Assembly (NCBI GenBank): GCA_964017195.1
Contig: OZ024894.1
Span: 32,494,284 to 32,558,283 of the forward strand
Source: Siderastrea radians
Lineage: Eukaryota; Cnidaria; Anthozoa; Scleractinia; Rhizangiidae
Reading direction: 5' to 3'
DNA: 64,000 nucleotides
Within the stretch, counting starts at the first letter, position 1. Each line of letters opens with the position of its first letter. The notes under the pieces are model-generated. The model did no database searches and had not been told where the DNA came from. It saw only the letters and a program-made list of their open reading frames with translations. Shown in pieces: positions 4,721 through 58,500 of the stretch. A program made the position numbers and the translations under genes.

Positions 4721-4836
4721 CAGTCCGGGATCGTTATCAATTTTGATAACTCAGAGCAAAACAAACCATTAGCCAATCGCCTCTCAAATTTTTGTGCACG
4801 TGACGCTATTTGCGAGGCATCGGCCATAAATTCAAT

Positions 4837-4932
4837 ATGGCGGACGAATGCGAGACGATTTCGGAAAGGCTGAGAAGTAGTTACATTGTACCTTCTTCAA
4901 GTGAATTTCATGTTTATATCACAGGAATATGA
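4837..4932 (+). CDS. Candidate 5' exon or short reading frame, unknown product
   Basis: ATGGCGGACGAATGCGAGAC opens a 31-residue frame (MADECETISERLRSSYIVPS...) 86 bp inside the left TIR. The start context (AATATGGCGG) is good for an animal gene. Whether it splices onward is not clear: a GT lies inside GAGAAGTAGTT, and the frame ends at TGA 4930. The product is not recognised. Confidence 0.3.
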   Translation: MADECETISERLRSSYIVPSSSEFHVYITGI

Positions 4933-5032
4933 AAAGAACATTATTTGAGAATGGTATTATGTATTAGACGTCTCTCCCCTCCGAACACGGCAAGCTGCCG
5001 GTGCGCGGAGACGCAGCTGTATTCGCAGGCTA

Positions 5033-5239
5033 AGAAATTATTTCCAAAAGCTGTGACATGAATTTCGAATACTTCATTGACCCAGCTCGATATCCTGTTA
5101 GTAGAGTCCCCTTCGATCTAGAAAAATCGGAGGAAGATTGAAGGAGACTTTGCTCGCAGGATACGACGTCAAATTTTCTCAAGCAACGACTGTTCTGAGG
5201 GAAATGACAAGTGAAGGAAGACAACGATTATTCTATTAA
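5033..5239 (+). pseudogene. Decayed coding fragment, unknown protein
   Basis: The + strand reads EIISKSCDMNFEYFIDPARY... to a TGA at 5138. One base out of frame it continues as KETLLAGYDVKFSQATTVLR... to a TAA at 5237-5239. The two halves read like one coding region with a one-base deletion near 5138. A possible acceptor (CTAAG) precedes it. It could be a downstream exon of the gene starting at 4837. No family was recognised. Confidence 0.3.
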
Positions 5240-5893
5240 CAAAGCGTTTATTCATTCATTTGATTACATTTTATTTTCACAGTGTTCGCTCTGTTCTTGC
5301 TTCTTTTTCTTTGCCGTGTTCATGGCAGGGAAGGTGAACGTTCATCAGTCTGTAGTAAAAACGAAATAATCACCATGAATAAATATTGCTTTCACAAACG
5401 ACGATACAGCTTATACTTGTGCTTGTATATTGAAGTATTCTATTGCACGGGAGGCGATTGAGGCTGCAATTGTTCACGTATTTAAGACTTAATTTGCATG
5501 TGCGGAAGTTTGTTTAGAAGGAAAGATATAAGCTTAGCTCTAAAGAAGCTACAACTTTCAAATTCTTGACGAAAAAGGTCTATAGCTACACTCCGTGATG
5601 CGCAACACAACATCCGGAAAGATTTCCGCACAGCCCCATACTTCATTATGCATGCAGAATAAATTAATTATGCATGCGCTCTATTGTTTTTTTAAGACAA
5701 TGGCCTTTTGAATATATATACATTGATAATTACTACTTACTTTTTCAATAAAAATGGATTTAGTTGCGTCTGCCTTTTTTCTCTCTTCTCTCACTCCTTC
5801 TTTTCCGTTCCTCTTCATTTCTTCTATTTTTCTCTTACCCAGTCCCTTACCGGTTTTTTTCTTCTTTTTTTCCTTTGGATTTACCCTCGGCTT

Positions 5894-5965
5894 GCCTCGA
5901 ACTCTCACTCTTTATCTTACCTTTGGATTAGCTGCCCATCTACTATACCACTACACCACGGTGAT
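5894..5965 (-). mobile_element. tRNA-derived SINE head inside each array unit
   Basis: On the - strand a box-A-like TGGTGTAGTGGTATAG (5958-5943) and a box-B-like GAGTTCGAGGC (5904-5894) are spaced as in a tRNA promoter. A GCAGCTAATCC anticodon-arm-like block lies between them. A copy sits at the same place in every unit (add 1477 each time). Confidence 0.5.
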
Positions 5966-6313
5966 TTGTTGACATTTTCCCGGTGATAAATTATTTTTAT
6001 GTTTAGCTACCAATCAACATTATTAAAATTTGACTAAATTTACATTTGAATTACTTCTATTACAAAGACACCTCACCTTTTAGAATTACTGCACGAAAAA
6101 ATGATTTATTTTTGTCCATCCATTGGTTCTCAGTTGAACAAAAAGGCCACGCATTTCACTCTTCTGCTCGATCCAGTCTTCGGCGGCCGTGAAACGAAGG
6201 CTTGCTTCCTTGTTCCGGTAGAGCGCAGTGATAAAGATACACTTTTTGCCCATCATACGCGCACACATCTTGCCAGGAACACGCGTGATGAGCGCCAAGT
6301 GGAAAGCTTATGA

Positions 6314-6574
6314 TTACGTACAAAACGAGGGCTATATTCATCTCACAGTCAACTAGTACAGCTTAAACTTCGCAGACTTAGGCACCGAGGTTTGCCCCGC
6401 ACAGGAACGTCCAAAGAACTCTACGAAAGCTACCTACAGGAGTGGATGTAGCATCAGCATTATAACAAGGATCCTTTTGGCAACATTATCAAGCCTATCT
6501 GCGACCTTTGTGAGGTCCGCAAGGACGCATATATGGTTCAGTTCCCGGAGTACCACTTTATGAACCGTTCGTAA
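6314..6574 (+). pseudogene. SAP-like motif in a reading frame with one internal stop (repeated in each unit)
   Basis: The frame reads LVQLKLRRLRHRGLPRTGTS followed by KELYESYLQEWM, then TAG at 6449-6451. It continues HQHYNKDPFGNIIKPICDLC and ends at TAA 6572-6574. Leucine spacing, the RGL-x3-GT-x2-EL core and length resemble an SAP domain, a helix-extension-helix DNA-binding module of about 35 residues. A Cys pair (CDLC) follows the stop. Transposon proteins often carry SAP domains, so this may be what is left of the element's own gene. It is present in all seven units with the same stop. Similarity was judged by eye only. Confidence 0.35.
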
Positions 6575-7092
6575 TTCGGCCACGCTACATTTCAACAGGG
6601 AAAGCAAGAATAAAATACGAAAAATTCCTGCTTCACAAGCATTGTCTCCATGTTAACAAGGAAAGCAAAAATAAAGAAATAAGTAAATAAAATAAAAAAA
6701 TAAACGACACAAGACACAAGAAGGGTAAGAAAACCTTTTATTTTTAAAATGTTATGTGGTTTACGTTAACAAAATATGCGCTGTTTATAACCTCATTTAT
6801 GGCTAACCTTACAACTTAAATCCACATTTTTTCTAACAATTTACACTCGAGACAGATTTAAAAACACGAGAAAAGTGCACAAATTTTTAAAAAATTGCTC
6901 GATTTTCCGTATTTTTGACCCAAAATCCGTAAATTTTGTCTAAGCCCATATGGACTTAGAAAAAGAATATAAACTTTGTTGAACAAAAGGAGTCATTAGA
7001 AATGCGCATTAGAAATACGCGCTATTGTTTTCTTTAAACAAAGAGCTGTATGCATAATGAAGTATGGGGCTGTGCGGAAATCTTGCCCAACA

Positions 7093-8564
7093 GGAAAGAT
7101 TTCCGCACAGCCCCATACTTCATTATGCATGCAGAATAAATTAATTATGCATGCGCTCTATTGTTTTTTTAAGACAATGGCCTTTTGAATATATATACAT
7201 TGATAATTACTACTTACTTTTTCAATAAAAATGGATTTAGTTGCGTCTGCCTTTTTTCTCTCTTCTCTCACTCCTTCTTTTCCGTTCCTCTTCATTTCTT
7301 CTATTTTTCTCTTACCCAGTCCCTTACCGGTTTTTTTCTTCTTTTTTTCCTTTGGATTTACCCTCGGCTTGCCTCGAACTCTCACTCTTTATCTTACCTT
7401 TGGATTAGCTGCCCATCTACTATACCACTACACCACGGTGATTTGTTGACATTTTCCCGGTGATAAATTATTTTTATGTTTAGCTACCAATCAACATTAT
7501 TAAAATTTGACTAAATTTACATTTGAATTACTTCTATTACAAAGACACCTCACCTTTTAGAATTACTGCACGAAAAAATGATTTATTTTTGTCCATCCAT
7601 TGGTTCTCAGTTGAACAAAAAGGCCACGCATTTCACTCTTCTGCTCGATCCAGTCTTCGGCGGCCGTGAAACGAAGGCTTGCTTCCTTGTTCCGGTAGAG
7701 CGCAGTGATAAAGATACACTTTTTGCCCATCATACGCGCACACATCTTGCCAGGAACACGCGTGATGAGCGCCAAGTGGAAAGCTTATGATTACGTACAA
7801 AACGAGGGCTATATTCATCTCACAGTCAACTAGTACAGCTTAAACTTCGCAGACTTAGGCACCGAGGTTTGCCCCGCACAGGAACGTCCAAAGAACTCTA
7901 CGAAAGCTACCTACAGGAGTGGATGTAGCATCAGCATTATAACAAGGATCCTTTTGGCAACATTATCAAGCCTATCTGCGACCTTTGTGAGGTCCGCAAG
8001 GACGCATATATGGTTCAGTTCCCGGAGTACCACTTTATGAACCGTTCGTAATTCGGCCACGCTACATTTCAACAGGGAAAGCAAGAATAAAATACGAAAA
8101 ATTCCTGCTTCACAAGCATTGTCTCCATGTTAACAAGGAAAGCAAAAATAAAGAAATAAGTAAATAAAATAAAAAAATAAACGACACAAGACACAAGAAG
8201 GGTAAGAAAACCTTTTATTTTTAAAATGTTATGTGGTTTACGTTAACAAAATATGCGCTGTTTATAACCTCATTTATGGCTAACCTTACAACTTAAATCC
8301 ACATTTTTTCTAACAATTTACACTCGAGACAGATTTAAAAACACGAGAAAAGTGCACAAATTTTTAAAAAATTGCTCGATTTTCCGTATTTTTGACCCAA
8401 AATCCGTAAATTTTGTCTAAGCCCATATGGACTTAGAAAAAGAATATAAACTTTGTTGAACAAAAGGAGTCATTAGAAATGCGCATTAGAAATACGCGCT
8501 ATTGTTTTCTTTAAACAAAGAGCTGTATGCATAATGAAGTATGGGGCTGTGCGGAAATCTTGCC
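7093..8564. mobile_element. Array unit 2
   Basis: Copy of unit 1; left spacer CAACA at 7088-7092, tRNA-like head at 7371-7442 (-). Confidence 0.85.
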
Positions 8565-8569
8565 CAACA

Positions 8570-10041
8570 GGAAAGATTTCCGCACAGCCCCATACTTCAT
8601 TATGCATGCAGAATAAATTAATTATGCATGCGCTCTATTGTTTTTTTAAGACAATGGCCTTTTGAATATATATACATTGATAATTACTACTTACTTTTTC
8701 AATAAAAATGGATTTAGTTGCGTCTGCCTTTTTTCTCTCTTCTCTCACTCCTTCTTTTCCGTTCCTCTTCATTTCTTCTATTTTTCTCTTACCCAGTCCC
8801 TTACCGGTTTTTTTCTTCTTTTTTTCCTTTGGATTTACCCTCGGCTTGCCTCGAACTCTCACTCTTTATCTTACCTTTGGATTAGCTGCCCATCTACTAT
8901 ACCACTACACCACGGTGATTTGTTGACATTTTCCCGGTGATAAATTATTTTTATGTTTAGCTACCAATCAACATTATTAAAATTTGACTAAATTTACATT
9001 TGAATTACTTCTATTACAAAGACACCTCACCTTTTAGAATTACTGCACGAAAAAATGATTTATTTTTGTCCATCCATTGGTTCTCAGTTGAACAAAAAGG
9101 CCACGCATTTCACTCTTCTGCTCGATCCAGTCTTCGGCGGCCGTGAAACGAAGGCTTGCTTCCTTGTTCCGGTAGAGCGCAGTGATAAAGATACACTTTT
9201 TGCCCATCATACGCGCACACATCTTGCCAGGAACACGCGTGATGAGCGCCAAGTGGAAAGCTTATGATTACGTACAAAACGAGGGCTATATTCATCTCAC
9301 AGTCAACTAGTACAGCTTAAACTTCGCAGACTTAGGCACCGAGGTTTGCCCCGCACAGGAACGTCCAAAGAACTCTACGAAAGCTACCTACAGGAGTGGA
9401 TGTAGCATCAGCATTATAACAAGGATCCTTTTGGCAACATTATCAAGCCTATCTGCGACCTTTGTGAGGTCCGCAAGGACGCATATATGGTTCAGTTCCC
9501 GGAGTACCACTTTATGAACCGTTCGTAATTCGGCCACGCTACATTTCAACAGGGAAAGCAAGAATAAAATACGAAAAATTCCTGCTTCACAAGCATTGTC
9601 TCCATGTTAACAAGGAAAGCAAAAATAAAGAAATAAGTAAATAAAATAAAAAAATAAACGACACAAGACACAAGAAGGGTAAGAAAACCTTTTATTTTTA
9701 AAATGTTATGTGGTTTACGTTAACAAAATATGCGCTGTTTATAACCTCATTTATGGCTAACCTTACAACTTAAATCCACATTTTTTCTAACAATTTACAC
9801 TCGAGACAGATTTAAAAACACGAGAAAAGTGCACAAATTTTTAAAAAATTGCTCGATTTTCCGTATTTTTGACCCAAAATCCGTAAATTTTGTCTAAGCC
9901 CATATGGACTTAGAAAAAGAATATAAACTTTGTTGAACAAAAGGAGTCATTAGAAATGCGCATTAGAAATACGCGCTATTGTTTTCTTTAAACAAAGAGC
10001 TGTATGCATAATGAAGTATGGGGCTGTGCGGAAATCTTGCC
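8570..10041. mobile_element. Array unit 3
   Basis: Copy of unit 1; left spacer CAACA at 8565-8569, tRNA-like head at 8848-8919 (-). Confidence 0.85.
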
Positions 10042-10046
10042 CAACA

Positions 10047-11518
10047 GGAAAGATTTCCGCACAGCCCCATACTTCATTATGCATGCAGAATAAATTAATT
10101 ATGCATGCGCTCTATTGTTTTTTTAAGACAATGGCCTTTTGAATATATATACATTGATAATTACTACTTACTTTTTCAATAAAAATGGATTTAGTTGCGT
10201 CTGCCTTTTTTCTCTCTTCTCTCACTCCTTCTTTTCCGTTCCTCTTCATTTCTTCTATTTTTCTCTTACCCAGTCCCTTACCGGTTTTTTTCTTCTTTTT
10301 TTCCTTTGGATTTACCCTCGGCTTGCCTCGAACTCTCACTCTTTATCTTACCTTTGGATTAGCTGCCCATCTACTATACCACTACACCACGGTGATTTGT
10401 TGACATTTTCCCGGTGATAAATTATTTTTATGTTTAGCTACCAATCAACATTATTAAAATTTGACTAAATTTACATTTGAATTACTTCTATTACAAAGAC
10501 ACCTCACCTTTTAGAATTACTGCACGAAAAAATGATTTATTTTTGTCCATCCATTGGTTCTCAGTTGAACAAAAAGGCCACGCATTTCACTCTTCTGCTC
10601 GATCCAGTCTTCGGCGGCCGTGAAACGAAGGCTTGCTTCCTTGTTCCGGTAGAGCGCAGTGATAAAGATACACTTTTTGCCCATCATACGCGCACACATC
10701 TTGCCAGGAACACGCGTGATGAGCGCCAAGTGGAAAGCTTATGATTACGTACAAAACGAGGGCTATATTCATCTCACAGTCAACTAGTACAGCTTAAACT
10801 TCGCAGACTTAGGCACCGAGGTTTGCCCCGCACAGGAACGTCCAAAGAACTCTACGAAAGCTACCTACAGGAGTGGATGTAGCATCAGCATTATAACAAG
10901 GATCCTTTTGGCAACATTATCAAGCCTATCTGCGACCTTTGTGAGGTCCGCAAGGACGCATATATGGTTCAGTTCCCGGAGTACCACTTTATGAACCGTT
11001 CGTAATTCGGCCACGCTACATTTCAACAGGGAAAGCAAGAATAAAATACGAAAAATTCCTGCTTCACAAGCATTGTCTCCATGTTAACAAGGAAAGCAAA
11101 AATAAAGAAATAAGTAAATAAAATAAAAAAATAAACGACACAAGACACAAGAAGGGTAAGAAAACCTTTTATTTTTAAAATGTTATGTGGTTTACGTTAA
11201 CAAAATATGCGCTGTTTATAACCTCATTTATGGCTAACCTTACAACTTAAATCCACATTTTTTCTAACAATTTACACTCGAGACAGATTTAAAAACACGA
11301 GAAAAGTGCACAAATTTTTAAAAAATTGCTCGATTTTCCGTATTTTTGACCCAAAATCCGTAAATTTTGTCTAAGCCCATATGGACTTAGAAAAAGAATA
11401 TAAACTTTGTTGAACAAAAGGAGTCATTAGAAATGCGCATTAGAAATACGCGCTATTGTTTTCTTTAAACAAAGAGCTGTATGCATAATGAAGTATGGGG
11501 CTGTGCGGAAATCTTGCC
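10047..11518. mobile_element. Array unit 4
   Basis: Copy of unit 1; left spacer CAACA at 10042-10046, tRNA-like head at 10325-10396 (-). Confidence 0.85.
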
Positions 11519-11523
11519 CAACA

Positions 11524-12995
11524 GGAAAGATTTCCGCACAGCCCCATACTTCATTATGCATGCAGAATAAATTAATTATGCATGCGCTCTATTGTTTTTT
11601 TAAGACAATGGCCTTTTGAATATATATACATTGATAATTACTACTTACTTTTTCAATAAAAATGGATTTAGTTGCGTCTGCCTTTTTTCTCTCTTCTCTC
11701 ACTCCTTCTTTTCCGTTCCTCTTCATTTCTTCTATTTTTCTCTTACCCAGTCCCTTACCGGTTTTTTTCTTCTTTTTTTCCTTTGGATTTACCCTCGGCT
11801 TGCCTCGAACTCTCACTCTTTATCTTACCTTTGGATTAGCTGCCCATCTACTATACCACTACACCACGGTGATTTGTTGACATTTTCCCGGTGATAAATT
11901 ATTTTTATGTTTAGCTACCAATCAACATTATTAAAATTTGACTAAATTTACATTTGAATTACTTCTATTACAAAGACACCTCACCTTTTAGAATTACTGC
12001 ACGAAAAAATGATTTATTTTTGTCCATCCATTGGTTCTCAGTTGAACAAAAAGGCCACGCATTTCACTCTTCTGCTCGATCCAGTCTTCGGCGGCCGTGA
12101 AACGAAGGCTTGCTTCCTTGTTCCGGTAGAGCGCAGTGATAAAGATACACTTTTTGCCCATCATACGCGCACACATCTTGCCAGGAACACGCGTGATGAG
12201 CGCCAAGTGGAAAGCTTATGATTACGTACAAAACGAGGGCTATATTCATCTCACAGTCAACTAGTACAGCTTAAACTTCGCAGACTTAGGCACCGAGGTT
12301 TGCCCCGCACAGGAACGTCCAAAGAACTCTACGAAAGCTACCTACAGGAGTGGATGTAGCATCAGCATTATAACAAGGATCCTTTTGGCAACATTATCAA
12401 GCCTATCTGCGACCTTTGTGAGGTCCGCAAGGACGCATATATGGTTCAGTTCCCGGAGTACCACTTTATGAACCGTTCGTAATTCGGCCACGCTACATTT
12501 CAACAGGGAAAGCAAGAATAAAATACGAAAAATTCCTGCTTCACAAGCATTGTCTCCATGTTAACAAGGAAAGCAAAAATAAAGAAATAAGTAAATAAAA
12601 TAAAAAAATAAACGACACAAGACACAAGAAGGGTAAGAAAACCTTTTATTTTTAAAATGTTATGTGGTTTACGTTAACAAAATATGCGCTGTTTATAACC
12701 TCATTTATGGCTAACCTTACAACTTAAATCCACATTTTTTCTAACAATTTACACTCGAGACAGATTTAAAAACACGAGAAAAGTGCACAAATTTTTAAAA
12801 AATTGCTCGATTTTCCGTATTTTTGACCCAAAATCCGTAAATTTTGTCTAAGCCCATATGGACTTAGAAAAAGAATATAAACTTTGTTGAACAAAAGGAG
12901 TCATTAGAAATGCGCATTAGAAATACGCGCTATTGTTTTCTTTAAACAAAGAGCTGTATGCATAATGAAGTATGGGGCTGTGCGGAAATCTTGCC
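11524..12995. mobile_element. Array unit 5
   Basis: Copy of unit 1; left spacer CAACA at 11519-11523, tRNA-like head at 11802-11873 (-). Confidence 0.85.
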
Positions 12996-13000
12996 CAACA

Positions 13001-14472
13001 GGAAAGATTTCCGCACAGCCCCATACTTCATTATGCATGCAGAATAAATTAATTATGCATGCGCTCTATTGTTTTTTTAAGACAATGGCCTTTTGAATAT
13101 ATATACATTGATAATTACTACTTACTTTTTCAATAAAAATGGATTTAGTTGCGTCTGCCTTTTTTCTCTCTTCTCTCACTCCTTCTTTTCCGTTCCTCTT
13201 CATTTCTTCTATTTTTCTCTTACCCAGTCCCTTACCGGTTTTTTTCTTCTTTTTTTCCTTTGGATTTACCCTCGGCTTGCCTCGAACTCTCACTCTTTAT
13301 CTTACCTTTGGATTAGCTGCCCATCTACTATACCACTACACCACGGTGATTTGTTGACATTTTCCCGGTGATAAATTATTTTTATGTTTAGCTACCAATC
13401 AACATTATTAAAATTTGACTAAATTTACATTTGAATTACTTCTATTACAAAGACACCTCACCTTTTAGAATTACTGCACGAAAAAATGATTTATTTTTGT
13501 CCATCCATTGGTTCTCAGTTGAACAAAAAGGCCACGCATTTCACTCTTCTGCTCGATCCAGTCTTCGGCGGCCGTGAAACGAAGGCTTGCTTCCTTGTTC
13601 CGGTAGAGCGCAGTGATAAAGATACACTTTTTGCCCATCATACGCGCACACATCTTGCCAGGAACACGCGTGATGAGCGCCAAGTGGAAAGCTTATGATT
13701 ACGTACAAAACGAGGGCTATATTCATCTCACAGTCAACTAGTACAGCTTAAACTTCGCAGACTTAGGCACCGAGGTTTGCCCCGCACAGGAACGTCCAAA
13801 GAACTCTACGAAAGCTACCTACAGGAGTGGATGTAGCATCAGCATTATAACAAGGATCCTTTTGGCAACATTATCAAGCCTATCTGCGACCTTTGTGAGG
13901 TCCGCAAGGACGCATATATGGTTCAGTTCCCGGAGTACCACTTTATGAACCGTTCGTAATTCGGCCACGCTACATTTCAACAGGGAAAGCAAGAATAAAA
14001 TACGAAAAATTCCTGCTTCACAAGCATTGTCTCCATGTTAACAAGGAAAGCAAAAATAAAGAAATAAGTAAATAAAATAAAAAAATAAACGACACAAGAC
14101 ACAAGAAGGGTAAGAAAACCTTTTATTTTTAAAATGTTATGTGGTTTACGTTAACAAAATATGCGCTGTTTATAACCTCATTTATGGCTAACCTTACAAC
14201 TTAAATCCACATTTTTTCTAACAATTTACACTCGAGACAGATTTAAAAACACGAGAAAAGTGCACAAATTTTTAAAAAATTGCTCGATTTTCCGTATTTT
14301 TGACCCAAAATCCGTAAATTTTGTCTAAGCCCATATGGACTTAGAAAAAGAATATAAACTTTGTTGAACAAAAGGAGTCATTAGAAATGCGCATTAGAAA
14401 TACGCGCTATTGTTTTCTTTAAACAAAGAGCTGTATGCATAATGAAGTATGGGGCTGTGCGGAAATCTTGCC
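13001..14472. mobile_element. Array unit 6
   Basis: Copy of unit 1; left spacer CAACA at 12996-13000, tRNA-like head at 13279-13350 (-). Confidence 0.85.
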
Positions 14473-14477
14473 CAACA

Positions 14478-15949
14478 GGAAAGATTTCCGCACAGCCCCA
14501 TACTTCATTATGCATGCAGAATAAATTAATTATGCATGCGCTCTATTGTTTTTTTAAGACAATGGCCTTTTGAATATATATACATTGATAATTACTACTT
14601 ACTTTTTCAATAAAAATGGATTTAGTTGCGTCTGCCTTTTTTCTCTCTTCTCTCACTCCTTCTTTTCCGTTCCTCTTCATTTCTTCTATTTTTCTCTTAC
14701 CCAGTCCCTTACCGGTTTTTTTCTTCTTTTTTTCCTTTGGATTTACCCTCGGCTTGCCTCGAACTCTCACTCTTTATCTTACCTTTGGATTAGCTGCCCA
14801 TCTACTATACCACTACACCACGGTGATTTGTTGACATTTTCCCGGTGATAAATTATTTTTATGTTTAGCTACCAATCAACATTATTAAAATTTGACTAAA
14901 TTTACATTTGAATTACTTCTATTACAAAGACACCTCACCTTTTAGAATTACTGCACGAAAAAATGATTTATTTTTGTCCATCCATTGGTTCTCAGTTGAA
15001 CAAAAAGGCCACGCATTTCACTCTTCTGCTCGATCCAGTCTTCGGCGGCCGTGAAACGAAGGCTTGCTTCCTTGTTCCGGTAGAGCGCAGTGATAAAGAT
15101 ACACTTTTTGCCCATCATACGCGCACACATCTTGCCAGGAACACGCGTGATGAGCGCCAAGTGGAAAGCTTATGATTACGTACAAAACGAGGGCTATATT
15201 CATCTCACAGTCAACTAGTACAGCTTAAACTTCGCAGACTTAGGCACCGAGGTTTGCCCCGCACAGGAACGTCCAAAGAACTCTACGAAAGCTACCTACA
15301 GGAGTGGATGTAGCATCAGCATTATAACAAGGATCCTTTTGGCAACATTATCAAGCCTATCTGCGACCTTTGTGAGGTCCGCAAGGACGCATATATGGTT
15401 CAGTTCCCGGAGTACCACTTTATGAACCGTTCGTAATTCGGCCACGCTACATTTCAACAGGGAAAGCAAGAATAAAATACGAAAAATTCCTGCTTCACAA
15501 GCATTGTCTCCATGTTAACAAGGAAAGCAAAAATAAAGAAATAAGTAAATAAAATAAAAAAATAAACGACACAAGACACAAGAAGGGTAAGAAAACCTTT
15601 TATTTTTAAAATGTTATGTGGTTTACGTTAACAAAATATGCGCTGTTTATAACCTCATTTATGGCTAACCTTACAACTTAAATCCACATTTTTTCTAACA
15701 ATTTACACTCGAGACAGATTTAAAAACACGAGAAAAGTGCACAAATTTTTAAAAAATTGCTCGATTTTCCGTATTTTTGACCCAAAATCCGTAAATTTTG
15801 TCTAAGCCCATATGGACTTAGAAAAAGAATATAAACTTTGTTGAACAAAAGGAGTCATTAGAAATGCGCATTAGAAATACGCGCTATTGTTTTCTTTAAA
15901 CAAAGAGCTGTATGCATAATGAAGTATGGGGCTGTGCGGAAATCTTGCC
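14478..15949. mobile_element. Array unit 7, right boundary of the array
   Basis: Its right TIR is followed by the full CAACATCC (15950-15957), not by CAACA plus a new left TIR, so the array ends here. tRNA-like head at 14756-14827 (-). Confidence 0.85.
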
Positions 15950-16114
15950 CAACATCCTGCAACAGAATTAAACACAAGAAGCCGCGGCCGGGCCGGCTAA
16001 ACTTTAGAATACCCGGGCACATATTTGCATGTCATTGAATATTAAACAATTGTTTCTTTTGTATTCATATGGCTCGTTCTTCAAAGCATTGAAAGATATG
16101 TAGATAAGTGGCCA

Positions 16115-16355
16115 GGGGCCCGTTTCTCGAAACTCCCGATAACTTTTCGGTCCCGGAAACTATTCTAGGTGCACAATATTCTCCAACAGCTATACAACTT
16201 TTATTGATTTTGAAAGCCAAATTTTAATCTTTATAATTTCGTGAACCATATCGCTAAGTTTGCGCCAATAATTACCATTAGCTGACAAACAAATGAGCTC
16301 GAAAAAATACTTACCGGACCCGGAAAGTTATCGGGAGTTTCGAGAAACGGGCCCC
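16115..16355. mobile_element. 241-bp MITE, GGGGCCCGTTTCTCG family
   Basis: The ends GGGGCCCGTTTCTCGAAACT (16115) and its reverse complement (ending 16355) extend as inverted repeats for about 35 bp through TCCCGATAACTTTYCGG. The interior is AT-rich and non-coding. No certain target duplication was read. A degenerate relative may lie near 4050-4170. Confidence 0.8.
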
Positions 16356-17024
16356 AGGTATTCTAAAGTCGCTCCGAGAGCAGCTCATTAAAACCACATT
16401 TAGTCGCTTAACAGACGATCAGATTTGGTCAAATTTAACTAAGAATAACTCATACAGGCACTAAGCCACAAGATATCAGAAAAAGACAGATATGAACTCG
16501 AGATCAAAGTCTTAAAGATGCGACGCCTAACCTTATAAACTGCTCAATTCAGTCATCATTCAAACATCCTCCAAACTAAACCCACTACAAAAATATAAGA
16601 AGCAAAATTGGTCGAAAGATCGAGATACATCAGACGCGGCTGACAAAGACGTGAAGTAGGAGTCGTGCAGGTCCTCTAATACCATTTTATAGCCGTAAGC
16701 TTAAGCTTTAAAGCTTAAATTTGTCACAGAAATTCAAACGCATCTGCGTAACAATGTCTGGGGATTACCACAAAAATCTATTTAACGAAGCATCTTAGAC
16801 ACGACGGATCAAGCGACGCAGTCAATAGGATCACAAAATGGCGGTTAGTGATGCAATCGGACTGCAAATCAAAATACGCCAGTGCACTTTTTAAATAAAT
16901 CGTGCACAACGATAAACAAACGACAAATCGAAAGGAATAAGGTTAAAGATTACGACATAATTTTTGTGGATGCCACAAAAATCTTTAAACAACTCAAATT
17001 TAACGGCAAAGTGGAAAAACATAC

Positions 17025-44552: not shown

Positions 44553-45432
44553 GCTATCTCTAAAATAGGGAATGGGGAATCGAGGAACGGGGAACGGGGA
44601 ACGGGGAATCTCTAAAATAGGGAATATCTAAAACAGGGAATCTCTAAAATAGGGAATCTCTAAAATGGGGAATCTCTAAAATAGGGAATCTCTAAAACGG
44701 GGAATCTCTAAAATAGGGAATCTCTAAAATAGGGAATCTCTAAAACGGGGAATCTCTAAAATAGGGAATCTCTAAAATAGGGAATCTCTAAAACGGGGAA
44801 TCTCTAAAACGGGGAATCTCTAAAATGGGGAATCTCTAAAATAGGGAATCTCTAAAACGGGGAATCTCTAAAATAGGGAATCTCTAAAACGGGGAATCTC
44901 TAAAATAGGGAATCTCTAAAATGGGGAATCCCTAAAACGGGGAATCTCTAAAACGGGGAATCTCTAAAATAGGGAATCTCTAAAACGGGGAATATCTAAA
45001 ATAGGGAATCTCTAAAATAGGGAATCTCTAAAACGGGGAATCTCTAAAATAGGGAATCTCTAAAATAGGGAATCTCTAAAACAGGGAATCTCTAAAATAG
45101 GGAATCTCTAAAACGGAGAATCTCTAAAACGGGGAATCTCTAAAATAAGGAATCTCTAAAATAGGGAATCTCTAAAACGGGGAATCTCTAAAATAGGGAA
45201 TCTCTAAAATAGGGAATCTCTAAAATGGGGAATCTCTAAAATAGGGAATCTCTAAAACGGGGAATCTCTAAAATAGGGAATCTCTAAAACGGGGAATCTC
45301 TAAAATAGGGAATCTCTAAAACGGGGAATCTCTAAAACGGGGAATCTCTAAAATAGGGAATCTCTAAAATAGGGAATCTCTAAAATGGGGAATCTCTAAA
45401 ACGGGGAATCTCTAAAATAGGGAATCTCTAAA
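44553..45432 (+). repeat. Left arm: (AATCTCTAAAAYRGGG)n
   Basis: 16-bp unit GGAATCTCTAAAATAG with three interspersed variants (AATAGGG, AACGGGG, AATGGGG). The variants do not form a simple higher-order period by eye. Confidence 0.92.
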
Positions 45433-45660: not shown

Positions 45661-46133
45661 GTTCCCTATTTTAGAGATTCCCCGTTTTAGAGATTCCCTG
45701 TTTTAGAGATTCCCTATTTTAGAGATTCCCTGTTTTAGAGATTCCCTATTTTAGAGATTCCCTATTTTAGAGATTCCCCGTTTTAGAGATTCCCTATTTT
45801 AGAGATTCCCTATTTTAGAGATTCCCCGTTTTAGAGATTCCCTATTTTAGAGATTCCCCGTTTTAGAGATTCCCTATTTTAGAGATTCCCTATTTTAGAG
45901 ATTCCCTATTTTAGAGATTCCCCGTTTTAGAGATTCCCTATTTTAGAGATTCCCTATTTTAGAGATTCCCTATTTTAGAGATTCCCTATTTTAGAGATTC
46001 CCTATTTTAGAGATTCCCTGTTTTAGAGATTCCCTATTTTAGAGATTCCCCGTTCCCCATTCCCCGTTCCCCGTTCCCCGTTCCCCGTTCCTCGATTCCC
46101 CGTTCCTCGATTCCCCGTTCCCTATTTTAGAGA
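45661..46133 (-). repeat. Right arm: same 16-bp unit in reverse
   Basis: CCCTATTTTAGAGATT units with the same variant types as the left arm, ending in (CCCCGTT)n and CCTCGATT words that mirror the left end. Confidence 0.92.
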
Positions 46134-52546: not shown

Positions 52547-55500
52547 CTGCAGTAAAAAAAAAACAGAATAAAAAGGATTTACTTGACTGTAGAATTACAT
52601 GTACATGTAATAATATGGCAAATGCTACAGTATCATTGGTAGTTACAGGTACAACTGTAGGAGCCTGCAATCTACAGCATTTGCTCTTGTTTGCAGTTAA
52701 TGTAAGGGATGTTTAAATGTACATGACACCAAAACATTTTTTTATACAAGTACATGTAGAAGTTCATGATGTGCATCTCGAACACAAGATGCACAATGAT
52801 GTATAGCTTGATCTTTATTTGTTGACAGCATACCAGTCCAAAATCTTACAACAGTACAAGCCCTGCTAGTACAATGTACGAGTTTACCCTGGTAGCTGTA
52901 CATAACAGATCAAGAAACAAAATCATCTTGTACCAGAAAGAAAACTATACAATGTACTGGTACATGCACTAGTATAAGGACACTCATGTTAAAACCCCAT
53001 TAATTCCCATTTGAGTTTTCAAAACCAAGGCAAAAGCTGTAACCCTACCTACTCTGTAGGCAGGAAAGGAACTGAGGAAACCAAAGTCACTACACGGTTT
53101 ATTGCATTGTACTTTTTGAACAGAAAATTACATGAACAGTGGTACCCACCATTAATATGACCATGGACAAGCCATAATAATTACAAAATACAGTCACATT
53201 AACAGGGGTGGTGATACAATCATTATGAAACATTTATTTAACTACATGTATAAAAAACTCACCTGTGCAGGAGAAGAACCATGGTGACTAGGATTCATTG
53301 GCGTGTACATATCTTCATTATCAGCTAACGAAGAAGATGAGGAAGAGTTGCTCCTTCCACTAGAATACCTCCTTGTCTGCAAAGCTGACATGTCTTCGTA
53401 ACACTGATCGTGATCCGGTGTTCTTGACCTTGGTGCATTCTCTTTACTATAGCTGTAGCACCTCGTCATTTCTGTTCTTGTTGGTGCCTCCATTGGGCAG
53501 TAATCAGCATCATCAACTAGCCCTGCAGACCACCGATCTTGCTGATTTGGCAAAGATCCAGCAAAGGGGTTTCCTGCTAACGTCTTTACAAGAGGCAGAT
53601 TCTGGGGACGTGTGGGAGGAACACCAAAGTTCACATAGCTGGGCTCAGGCTGGGGTACTGTGCCTCTTCTATGTTTACTGTCTCGATCAACTGGTGGTGG
53701 CATGTTACAATAGCTGTGGTCTTGTGTGGTTGCAGTCTTTGGCTTGTTGGCTCTGTTAACCTGTGGAGGACGCTTTGTGGAACGATCAATTACTGGATGC
53801 CCAGGGGATTGACTTGCAAGACCTTTGGGGTTTCAATAAAAAGTATACATTTAAGTACTGCTGTACTCTGGTAAAGGAGAGAGCCCAGGGGCGGATCCAG
53901 GGGGGGTGGATTGGGTGGCTAGCCACCCCCCTATTTGGGGTCTTTTAAGCTTAAAATCAAGAAAGGGAACAAAACTATCACCGGGGCGATTTTGTCTCGG
54001 ATTGTTCTGATATCGCTCTGTAAGGTCAGCCACCTCTCTTTCAAAACTCCTGGATCCGCCACTGGAGCCTGAATTTTAAGGTTACCATATTACTGTGCAT
54101 ATTATATATACGTACCATTATGAACAATGCACTACTAGCAGTTGTCTCTCGTACATCATGTTCTATGTACAAGTACATAAAACGTAAAAAACGTACTTTT
54201 AGCTCTAAAATGTTGAAAATTTGCAAGCCCTTGAAGGAAATTGTCAGCAGCAACAATTTTGCATCTGTCCAAATGAATTCAAACACATCTGAGCAACTTG
54301 ACAAGTCTTAAGCATTTCTTCTGTCCAAAACCAGACCTTTTCATCTACATGTAAGTTCAGCACAATAAAAATCTTACACAGCAAGAACACTGGTTAGCCT
54401 CCAGATAAGTGCAATGTGCAGTTCCAGAAATATCCACACCTATCCCAGGAAAGGTCATTCAAAATTCAGAGGGAGTTGGGGTCTCTATCAGGGATCACTC
54501 CCCCTGGACATAATAGCACCAGTACATTGCTTCTTAGTACCCGTTTACATGTATTATTAGATTTATGCCTCTGGGGATGGAGAAAGATACATGTACATGC
54601 TGTAGAGTGTCAAACATTCAGTGCATTAACCACATTACACAACATGTTTCCAAGTGATATGTGTATGATCAAAGATGAACACTATGTATTACATGGCATT
54701 GTACAGTGTATGAACACTCCTACCTTGGTTACTGTGTGATGGTGGCACATCATAGATTTCATCAGAGGTCATTGGAGGTGTATCATAAATCTCATCAGAG
54801 TGTTTAGGAAGCACATCATAGATACTCTCTTGTTTAGGAGGGACATCGTATATAGAATTCCTGGTTTCCCAGTTAGGAGGGATGTCGTAAATGTCATTTG
54901 GGTTCACATCGTCTGGTGAGTCGTCACTTAAAGATCCAGAATCCCTTGTGTTTGGAAGAGCTGGCAAAGGAGCGTTGTATCTATCCTCCTGGCCATCATT
55001 GCCTTCTGACTTCAAAGAACAGATGCTTGAAAATGAGGCATTAAGTCCAGAATCGGCACTTACTGGACGATTGGTATTCGGAAGAGGATCATAAGCATCT
55101 TTTTTGGGTCGGTATGGGGAAGGCCTTGGTGGTGCCGGTACCCACTCATGGGGATCACCTGTGGACTGTAGATTAGGAGGGACACTATAAATGTCTGACA
55201 AACGATGATCAACTTCATAAGAATGTGGTTCACCACTGCTCCCCAGTTCATTGGCTGTTGTTATTGCCCTGGGAGGTGGCACAATATCATAATCTTCACC
55301 AGCTGGGCGGGGAATTGGAACAACATCGTAATTTTCTTGAGGGTTATATGGTTGACTATGACTTGGTTTTGAAGAAACTGGTCTATGTACAGGGGGTACA
55401 ATGTCGTAGTTTTCCTGTGTTGATGAACGTCTTTCAGAAGGAAGATTATCGTAAGCACTTTGACCATCATACACGTAATGTGTAGTCTGTCGCTTTGGTA

Positions 55501-58500
55501 CAATATCGTAAAGGTCCTGTGATGTTTCTTGCTGAGTATGGTTTGGTTTGGGAACAACTGGTCGTGCAGGAGGAACAATATCATAATTTTCCTGCTCTAA
55601 CACTCTTCCAGATGGAATATCATACACCGAAGCTTGTCTCTTTGGCAGAACATCGTAATTTTCTTGTGAAGTTCCTGGTTGAATATGGTTTGGTTTGGGA
55701 GCAACTGGTCGGTGAAAAGGAGGAACAATGTCGTAATTCTCTTGCTCTAACATTCCCCTCCCTGATGGAGGAACATCATACACACTTTGAGTATCTCGAA
55801 CCTGTGGCGAAGGATGCCTCAATGGCACAACATCATAATTTTGTTGCAAATTATCTGATTGAACATGACTTGGTTTGGGGGCAACTGGTCGGTGTACAGA
55901 TGGAACAATGTCATAGTTATCTTGCTCCCTTCCACTTGGAGGAACATCATAAATACTTTGATCATCTTGACTACAAGAAGATGTTGGCCTTGGAGGAGGA
56001 ACTAAATCATAGACATCCTGCGATGATCTGTTACTAGCCTGGGATAATGGGCGAGGTGTGGGAACTGCATCGTATTCATCAGGCGGAAACAAATGATGCC
56101 CTGATTTCCTTCTAGGGGATAAAGAATTAGGTGCAGAATCACATGGTCGAGGTATTGGGACATCATCGTAATTATCTTGATTGTTCTCTAGCCCAGAGCT
56201 GAACACTGGCTGTATAACTTTCTTGGGACTTGGCAAGTTATCATACTCATCATGATGTAAAGGTCTAGGAGAAGGTACTGCATCATACGTTTCTGAAAGA
56301 ACTCCTGAAAGACGTGCCTTCCCTTGCATGTCACGGATGTTAAGAGGTGACGTGGGAATTCCAGCTTGCTCAGACTGCCTTCGAAGCATCCCACGGTGAA
56401 CCTGTGGAGCATCTGATGTATGTTCCGGAGGATCACTCATTGATCTTTGTTTGTTTCGATCATCCATAATGTGTTTGGGAATGGAAAGTGGACAAGGGCC
56501 TGTTGGTGACGTCAAGCTTGAGCTTGATGAAGAAACACTGGATGGTGTTCCAATAGGACTTGTTGTGCTGCGTTTGGCAGGTGCAATTGGTTTAGGGTGA
56601 GCTGGGGAGCTGTTGTACACATTCACTTTCCGACCTGCATTCCCATCTAAAAAAATGTGAGGAAAGTACAGTAAGAGTCAGAAAAGAAACATCACATGCG
56701 AAGTTTTAGTCCAACTATATACCTAGCTAGGTACATGTACATGTACATTTCATGTTACACCTGTCATGAGCTGCAAGCAGTACACACATTCACTCTCCTG
56801 TTTCACCTCATGTGCATTATTGTACAATGCTAAATTTTGGTGTGCTCCCATTAGTCGAAATCGATTATGTAACGTGATACTGTCTCTCCTCAGGGGGCGC
56901 CTATCCGCACATAGTGCCCGTTTTTGGCAATTTTCGCTCAAAATCTAGCATTGTACAATAAAAACAACAGAGTCCTTCTGTCTCAAGCCCTATATGTATG
57001 TGTGATAGGTTCCCTCAGAAATTCGATGTTCAAACGTTATATAAGCCCGTGAACTACATTCTCGGGTTAATATTTGTTGTGAACATCAAATTTCCTCAGG
57101 CAACCTATCACACGATAGTGCCTAAGACAGAACAACTCTATTGTTTAAATAGTGCATCGCAGTGTTACTTCCCAGCATTTTGGTAGGTTAATCCCTCTCC
57201 ATTCAACACAAAAGAAATATTGCCTTAGTTCCTGCTTTAGACAATTATGGCATGACTGCAGCATGACTACAGTGTACATGTAATAATGAGTCTTTTCTTC
57301 GTAAGTTACTACAGTCATGCATACAGTACCGCTCGAAAGTATTGGTGCATTTTCCGCGATACTGCCGCGGTGGAATTGCAGTTTGTATCTCCGGTTTGAC
57401 CTCGGGAAAACCTCGCCTAACTTCTTTGAAAACTCCGGTTTTACCTCGGTTTTTTGCGGTCAGAAATACCGCGGTAAAGAATAGGACGCGGTGGTGTTTG
57501 AATAGCCTTTTGTTTCCTTTGTTTCAAAGATTAATTAACTTCAATAAGCGAGACGTCGCGCGCCGATGATTTTATGATGTGATAGATTTCACATGATTAT
57601 TGCTTTTACCGTGATTCACAAACTGTGACTCCTGAGCACTTTTGCTGAACGCTAACGTTAGTCGAAGAAAGAAATGGAAACTCGTGCCATTTGCAACAGC
57701 TAGAAGAAATAAAACGGACATCATAGAGTTAGAATTGTTGCGTTACATACCATGTGACGTTCATTGAAAAGCTCACATTTCACCGTTATGCAAATTTGAT
57801 GCGCTTTTGAAGTGAAACTAACTCCGCGCTATATATCGCTATTTCTTACAAATTCTTTTACAATTGGCATTGTCTTTGAGCTTCAACATGAGTTTCATTT
57901 ACTATTTCAATTATCATCGAAGGATTAAGTGCGCAAAAGATCTAGAAAGGTTCGATTTGTTCCCACTCGCTCGCACAATTTATTTTGAGACTCACAGTAT
58001 GCAAATTAAAATTCAGTGCAATGCTCCGTGAACTAAAAATAATCTCTGGAAAAAACTTGCTATTTTAGTCTAATTCTCTTTCTAACATCATAACTTTTGC
58101 TTTTTAGTTCAAGTTACATTCACCAGTTTCGCTTTTGACGGCATGTTCGAGTATGGCGAAGGCATATTTCAATTCTGAAAATTTTAGCTTACGTCGCATT
58201 CGGCACGCAAATTATTCACGCAACGCTTGGCACCACATAGTCGTGTTTGCCGACTAAAACTGTTTTTTTTTTTTTTAAATAAAGAACATGTTTTACTTTA
58301 CTATTGAACGTGTCAGCTTCTGTTCGTTCGCTCGAAGTTTGCTTGCGGCTGCCTGACAATCCATTCTATTGTGATTGTGCATGATTCTGGCGCCTAGTCC
58401 CGCCGTCTTGCAAAGTCTGAAACGAGAACCTCTCCTGTTGTATCGCACGGACTACCGGCTTGCTCAAAAAACATTTAAATACATCGGCTTGCTCATAGCT

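Follow-up and report, generated by a model that had tools for sequence, protein, structure and literature searches.

Tandem arrays of a Merlin-type transposon in Siderastrea radians share a short one-flank joint, suggesting an asymmetric, transposase-made intermediate

Three independent arrays of one non-autonomous transposon in the genome of Siderastrea radians, an element assigned by its sequence to the Merlin (IS1595-type) family, follow a common joint rule. Wherever the right end of one copy meets the next copy, the first 5, 5 or 6 bases of the array's own right-end flank stand between them, followed by an exact left end. One of the arrays lies in the stretch of 64,000 nucleotides (nt) analyzed here (the window; assembly GCA_964017195.1, OZ024894.1:32,494,284-32,558,283, forward strand), in which all positions are counted from 1. 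It is probable, on the evidence of these joints, that the first step was an asymmetric transposase reaction, in which the left end is transferred to a site 5-6 bases outside the right end; given such a joint, the odds that a free circle was formed seem about even. Tandem transposons with terminal inverted repeats (TIRs) are thought to seed satellite DNA, and how the first dimer forms is still a question. With one fingerprint in three arrays, and circles predicted to carry the same bridge, that question becomes testable.

The window array (Table 1) consists of seven head-to-tail copies of 1472 bp with a period of 1477 bp, and not one position differs among the seven. Autocorrelation at 1477 gives a single unbroken identical run from 5616 to 14477, so that the repeat is perfect across 5616-15954. 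CAACA follows every copy, at the six internal joints and, after the seventh copy, as the start of an 8-bp sequence, CAACATCC, which stands once at each outer edge of the array. This architecture, with its identical units, constant period, CAACA joints and single outer duplication, had been proposed in an earlier sequence-only reading, and it is borne out base by base. The TIRs are 42 bp long and 95% complementary, with ends GGAAAG and GGCAAG, and they match the window 14 times, against none expected from shuffled sequence. The six joints are identical, and each is predicted to fold into a near-perfect 89-nt hairpin (z -16.75 for the first). Unit boundaries other than GG...CC were considered and rejected: an inward shift does yield apparent 8-bp repeats, yet any tandem array would behave in this way, and thus only the outer flanks and empty sites are informative.

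Is CAACATCC a genuine target-site duplication (TSD)? The 8-mer occurs four times in the window, against about two expected, and this count alone is weak evidence. It is recognized as the TSD because it abuts both outer TIR tips and is present singly at the corresponding empty sites. The left flank (4800-5607) belongs to a dispersed repeat that gave 733 first-look candidates; 40 were scored, and most of the copies listed are 93-99% identical. All eight paralogues fetched from among the scored copies have an uninterrupted empty site with one CAACATCC each, and the whole array therefore sits inside one 8-bp TSD, the product of a single original insertion.

The joint rule emerges when the other arrays are considered. 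The whole 805-Mb assembly was searched with a pattern of two exact TIR tips 0-25 bases apart, which detected ten TIR-TIR joints, all of them in three arrays, and none in a reversed control. A relaxed pattern with gaps of 0-30 returned the same ten, again with an empty control. Both patterns demand exact tips, so that arrays with mutated tips could be missed. A shorter pattern gave 41 forward and 16 reversed-control matches and, read by eye, none of the form NCC...GGN beyond the known ten. In element orientation, in which the sequences of all three arrays are given here, the joint is CAACA in the window array (C8), GAGCT in a dimer on contig C2 and AAATAG in a four-unit array on contig C10, in each case the beginning of that array's right flank. 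All ten joints, from three independent arrays, thus carry a short bridge taken from one flank, the mark of copy-out elements. The outer TSDs are intact at C8 and C2, which would fit, though not prove, a donor copy kept in place during circle formation. At C10 one is absent: the left end of that array (L031) is intact and the TSD is missing beside it, as if a deletion had begun exactly at the left tip. No intact copy of the right-flank sequence AAATAGGA turned up within 2.1 kb leftward of the C10 array, where one match with one mismatch lies about 2 kb away.

These joints bear directly on whether the arrays arose by replication slippage or unequal sister exchange, with the 8-bp TSD as microhomology and a 3-base joint deletion before expansion. 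An existing dimer can certainly be expanded by unequal exchange, and slippage was the explanation given for the arrays of coral CMITE elements (PMC2872659, in the excerpts available). Both processes, however, predict a full TSD as the spacer, which was seen at none of the ten joints detected. They would also need separate losses of 3, 3 and 2 bases in three arrays, each ending exactly at the left TIR. We regard this origin as very unlikely. The sequence-only reading had likewise argued against unequal exchange between ordinary copies, and had named joints with the full 8-bp duplication elsewhere as one observation that would overturn it; the genome-wide search found none among the ten joints detected with exact tips. 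It had left two options, a 3-base loss before amplification and a circular or rolling intermediate whose junction had been trimmed. The intermediate is favored, but "trimmed" does not fit a joint that is the first 5, 5 or 6 flank bases in all three arrays rather than a random remnant. The same observation makes a lone 3-base loss unlikely.

The recurrence of the rule also speaks to the possibility that an assembler expanded a single copy or dimer. The number of units is that given by the assembly rather than counted on reads, and since the units are perfectly identical a count of seven is uncheckable from the assembly alone. Flank bases specific to each locus stand at exact transposon ends in three places, however, and an assembler is hardly likely to have made them up; joints whose spacer matches their own flank are not easily put down to assembly error. 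At each locus a dimer or a circle, at the minimum, must exist, and we judge an artefact of this kind very unlikely.

A more serious competitor is excision by a staggered cut that falls some 5 bases beyond the right end, with host end-joining into circles or concatemers and homologous recombination into the donor locus. This route would give the same joints with no need for copy-out chemistry, and excised linear ends are the textbook route for eukaryotic TIR elements. A symmetric stagger, though, should preserve flanking bases at both ends or at either end, whereas in each of the three arrays the only flank retained is that of the right end, and the left end is exact. End-joining, moreover, usually scatters lengths, and here they are 5, 5 and 6. 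We judge excision with end-joining unlikely.

When were the copies multiplied? In an alignment of 26 copies (excluding the composite L027 and the sister units L021-L023 and L025 of the arrays), the units of the three arrays carry 19, 13 and 12 private substitutions and other copies carry 1-24; which substitutions count as private depends on this sample of 26. Between arrays, units differ by 46-50 substitutions, and the nearest other copies differ from array units by 31-35, while differences within arrays are zero for the seven units of C8, the four of C10 and the two of C2. Each array has therefore multiplied its own resident copy, and amplification was local and followed insertion, barring homogenization of the units. 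With zero mutations seen, and unless units were homogenized, the rough 95% upper limits on array age are 2%, 6% and 12.5% of private divergence.

The same figures address independent insertions of family members side by side. For class II elements, double insertions in head-to-tail order have a precedent (McGurk and Barbash 2018, as cited in the excerpts available of PMC12628747 and PMC12368964). Double insertion, however, should place units of independent origin side by side, each with its own TSD, and the array units instead differ by zero among themselves and by at least 31 substitutions from other aligned copies. It would also need TSDs of 5-6 bp, whereas 18 of 24 non-array copies have an exact TSD of at least 8 bp. 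Ordinary independent insertions are refuted by these comparisons, unless the inserting copy was the neighbor itself, and we give double insertion almost no weight.

What kind of element is this? According to the excerpts available of PMC8101967, Merlin elements have TIRs starting with GG, TSDs of 8-9 bp and a DDE_Tnp_IS1595 transposase. The array element has the GG tips, its non-array relatives and the empty sites give the TSD, and the transposase (PF12762) is found as a remnant in the element and as an open frame in a relative. The remnant (6222-6356) matches PF12762 at E 1.4e-4 with 22.4 bits, under the Pfam cut-off of 27. The relative, L034 on contig C12, has the same TIRs as the array element and an open frame that matches PF12762 at E 2.5e-15, above the cut-off; L048 and L049 are further copies of its roughly 1.64-kb subfamily, 95% and 98% identical to it. 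A tblastn search with this frame retrieved 43 plasmid records, and most of the 40 listed are annotated as IS1595 transposase. Judged by these sequence features, the array element is a non-autonomous Merlin transposon. The genome holds at least 80 PF12762 matches (150 of 168 candidates scored), many in open frames, and hence a transposase source in this genome is plausible.

The family itself is represented by at least 136 match rows (39 of 202 first-look candidates scored). The 30 best loci were examined for TSDs, six of them from the other two arrays and 24 non-array. Among the latter, the exact TSD is 8 bp at 16 loci, 9 bp at L003 and 12 bp, within a TTTA repeat, at L018; L002 and L007 have common flanks and are apparently one event. 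Six loci (L001, L013, L016, L019, L026 and L027) have no exact TSD of at least 8 bp. The right end of L016 lacks GCC, and an 8-bp duplication, GGTGGTCG, can be read there if the element end is CTT. At nine other Merlin loci (L046, L047 and L050-L056) a script found no GG tips with a TSD, and at the one boundary of another Merlin family that was read, the inverted partner was not found.

Composite insertions also occur in this family. L034 and L033 are each a pair of copies, joined precisely at a TIR end, inside one new TSD (GGTACGTT and AAGCGCTG, respectively), as though nested copies had used their outer ends together. As candidate partial arrays they were rejected: a single TSD surrounds each pair, which appears to have moved as one, and they are therefore excluded from the array count. 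L035 is a third nested or composite copy that resembles a partial array.

The asymmetric joint proposed above could be accommodated in the following scheme. Insertion of a single non-autonomous Merlin element at CAACATCC made an ordinary duplication of 8 bp. Long afterwards, transposase supplied in trans by open relatives with the same TIRs may have cleaved exactly at the left tip and linked the 3' strand of that end to a point on the same strand 5 or 6 bases beyond the right end, a reaction resembling the opening step of bacterial copy-out transposition; the product would read right end, 5-6 flank bases, left end. The outcome could be circles of element plus 5 bases (at C8), or the same joint between sister chromatids, which would fit the sequence equally well. 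A circle might then recombine with the resident donor copy, or rolling replication might copy it into the resident copy. Return to the donor would leave the full TSD at the outer edges and the short joint inside, and later unequal exchange could alter the number of units. It is possible, and we suggest it only tentatively, that eukaryotic Merlin transposases in general are not purely cut-and-paste but carry out asymmetric, left-end-first strand transfer with replicative (copy-out) circles. Failed circles that return to donor copies would then seed tandem arrays, and so proto-satellites, long after insertion.

Several considerations weigh against this proposal. Three arrays are few, and C10 lacks its left TSD. 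The left end is the donor in all three, but a common side has a chance of one in four and could be chance; ISCth4 and IS256, by comparison, use either end. The transposase source, the strand-transfer chemistry, the circle and the route of expansion are inferred rather than observed, and homogenization by gene conversion or unequal exchange can make arrays look younger than they are. The 80 PF12762 loci listed include nothing that resembles a tandem array, so a single non-autonomous family is the only one in which the rule is observed. A circle of an IS1595-family element, one of the bacterial kin of Merlin, has been detected by inverse polymerase chain reaction, which favors the proposal, yet in the excerpts available its authors see the junction as an overlap of 8-bp repeats, not a 5-6 base bridge (PMC12561309). 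A scan for abutted IS1595-type ends, modeled on the TIRs of that element, gave no joint in a bacterial and archaeal genome collection of 84,980 species, in which the presence of the element is unconfirmed, and this one end pair thus lends the rule no support from bacterial kin.

Other features of the window lie outside the array. To its right, in the same host repeat, is an inverted-repeat element (16112-16358) with 53-nt arms, 89% complementary, and 141 nt between them; it is not present in the eight fetched paralogues. Two 16-bp minisatellites (GGGAATCTCTAAAATA; 44604-45432 and 45662-46050, about 52 and 24 copies) face each other as an inverted pair. A 662-aa open frame on the minus strand (54689-56677) is rich in YDxP-like repeats and has no Pfam match at E 0.001; we take it to be reminiscent of Cas/BCAR1-type adaptor proteins.

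Table 1. Features of the window array and its insertion site (window positions), and the three arrays of the genome
Feature	Position	Strand	Basis or details
Left flank, piece of the dispersed high-copy repeat hit by the Merlin insertion	4800..5607	.	repeat search
Left TSD CAACATCC	5608..5615	+	single CAACATCC in 8/8 fetched empty-site paralogues
Unit 1, non-autonomous Merlin-type element, 1472 bp, left end GGAAAG, right end CTTGCC	5616..7087	+	
Left TIR of unit 1, 42 bp	5616..5657	+	inverted-repeat pair I17
Decayed Merlin transposase, several frames with stops, same in all units	6050..6574	+	tblastn with open relative, E 7e-30
Right TIR of unit 1, 42 bp	7046..7087	-	inverted-repeat pair I17
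Palindromic joint TIR-CAACA-TIR, first of six	7046..7134	.	predicted single 89-nt hairpin, z -16.75
Spacer CAACA (unit 1/2)	7088..7092	+	
Unit 2, identical	7093..8564	+	
Spacer CAACA (unit 2/3)	8565..8569	+	
Unit 3, identical	8570..10041	+	
Spacer CAACA (unit 3/4)	10042..10046	+	
Unit 4, identical	10047..11518	+	
Spacer CAACA (unit 4/5)	11519..11523	+	
Unit 5, identical	11524..12995	+	
Spacer CAACA (unit 5/6)	12996..13000	+	
Unit 6, identical	13001..14472	+	
Spacer CAACA (unit 6/7)	14473..14477	+	
Unit 7, identical	14478..15949	+	
Right TSD CAACATCC, first five bases = spacer	15950..15957	+	empty-site paralogues
Same host repeat resumed, up to another inverted-repeat insertion	15958..16111	.	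alignment of 8 paralogues; pair I16
C8 array (window)	5608..15957 (C8:32499891-32510240)		7 units; TSD CAACATCC; joint CAACA x6
C2 array	C2:55413326-55416256		2 units; TSD GAGCTTTC; joint GAGCT x1
C10 array	C10:16819417-16825313		4 units; right flank AAATAGGACATT, left flank GGATGGCCATT, no left TSD; joint AAATAG x3

Compared with known systems, the array element resembles the Merlin superfamily, the eukaryotic kin of IS1016/IS1595, in its GG TIRs, 8-bp TSD and DDE_Tnp_IS1595 remnant. The excerpts available of PMC8101967 report tandem repeats inside Merlin elements, whereas the window array is a tandem of whole elements; in that text whole-element tandem arrays or circles were not found and the word "circular" does not occur. 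Searches of the open-licence literature likewise yielded no report of Merlin arrays or circles.

The closest parallel for the joints is the bacterial copy-out group of IS256, ISCth4, IS3 and IS30 (sources again available in excerpt). ISCth4, which like the arrays has an 8-bp TSD, forms joints of 6-8 bp, and IS256 joints of 5, 6, 7 and 19 bp, in both cases from one flank, and a 6-bp spacer integrated most efficiently (PMC7780238). In the circles formed by IS256 and other Mutator-type elements, one flank contributes 6-10 bp (PMC3942029), and tandem dimers are known for IS30 (PMC9333248). What the arrays have in common with this group is the TIR-TIR joint with a short one-flank bridge. The bacterial elements differ in transposase family and domain of life, and in that the circle has been demonstrated there. 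The array family has a PF12762 (IS1595-type) transposase, not the Mutator type of IS256, so the likeness to IS256 is in the joints only.

Tandem TIR transposons this uniform had been called rarely described, which is fair, although precedents exist in Bari1, coral CMITEs and KolobokP multimers. Bari1 is a Tc1/mariner-type element. In Drosophila melanogaster it forms precise head-to-tail arrays in two heterochromatic clusters, one of roughly 80 copies and one of six, and every copy bears the same small change; each lacks its first two bases, and a circular concatemer was proposed (PMC8834629). The arrays described here differ in having intact ends plus added flank bases. Coral CMITE arrays likewise repeat a TIR element at its full size, and their units and spacers are similar, but these are piggyBac-type miniature inverted-repeat elements of about 100 bp, and the excerpts available of PMC2872659 do not contain a flank-prefix rule. 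Multimers of the DNA transposon KolobokP are usually TSD-flanked, and re-integration of circles has been discussed for them (PMC9587614, in excerpt); neighboring units there share long terminal direct repeats, which the array elements lack. Head-to-tail TIR elements and bacterial circles are thus already known, and what is new is a common one-flank rule of 5-6 bases across independent arrays of a eukaryotic element. If the proposed reaction is correct, it would connect bacterial insertion sequences, through their circle chemistry, with a eukaryotic superfamily usually labeled cut-and-paste.

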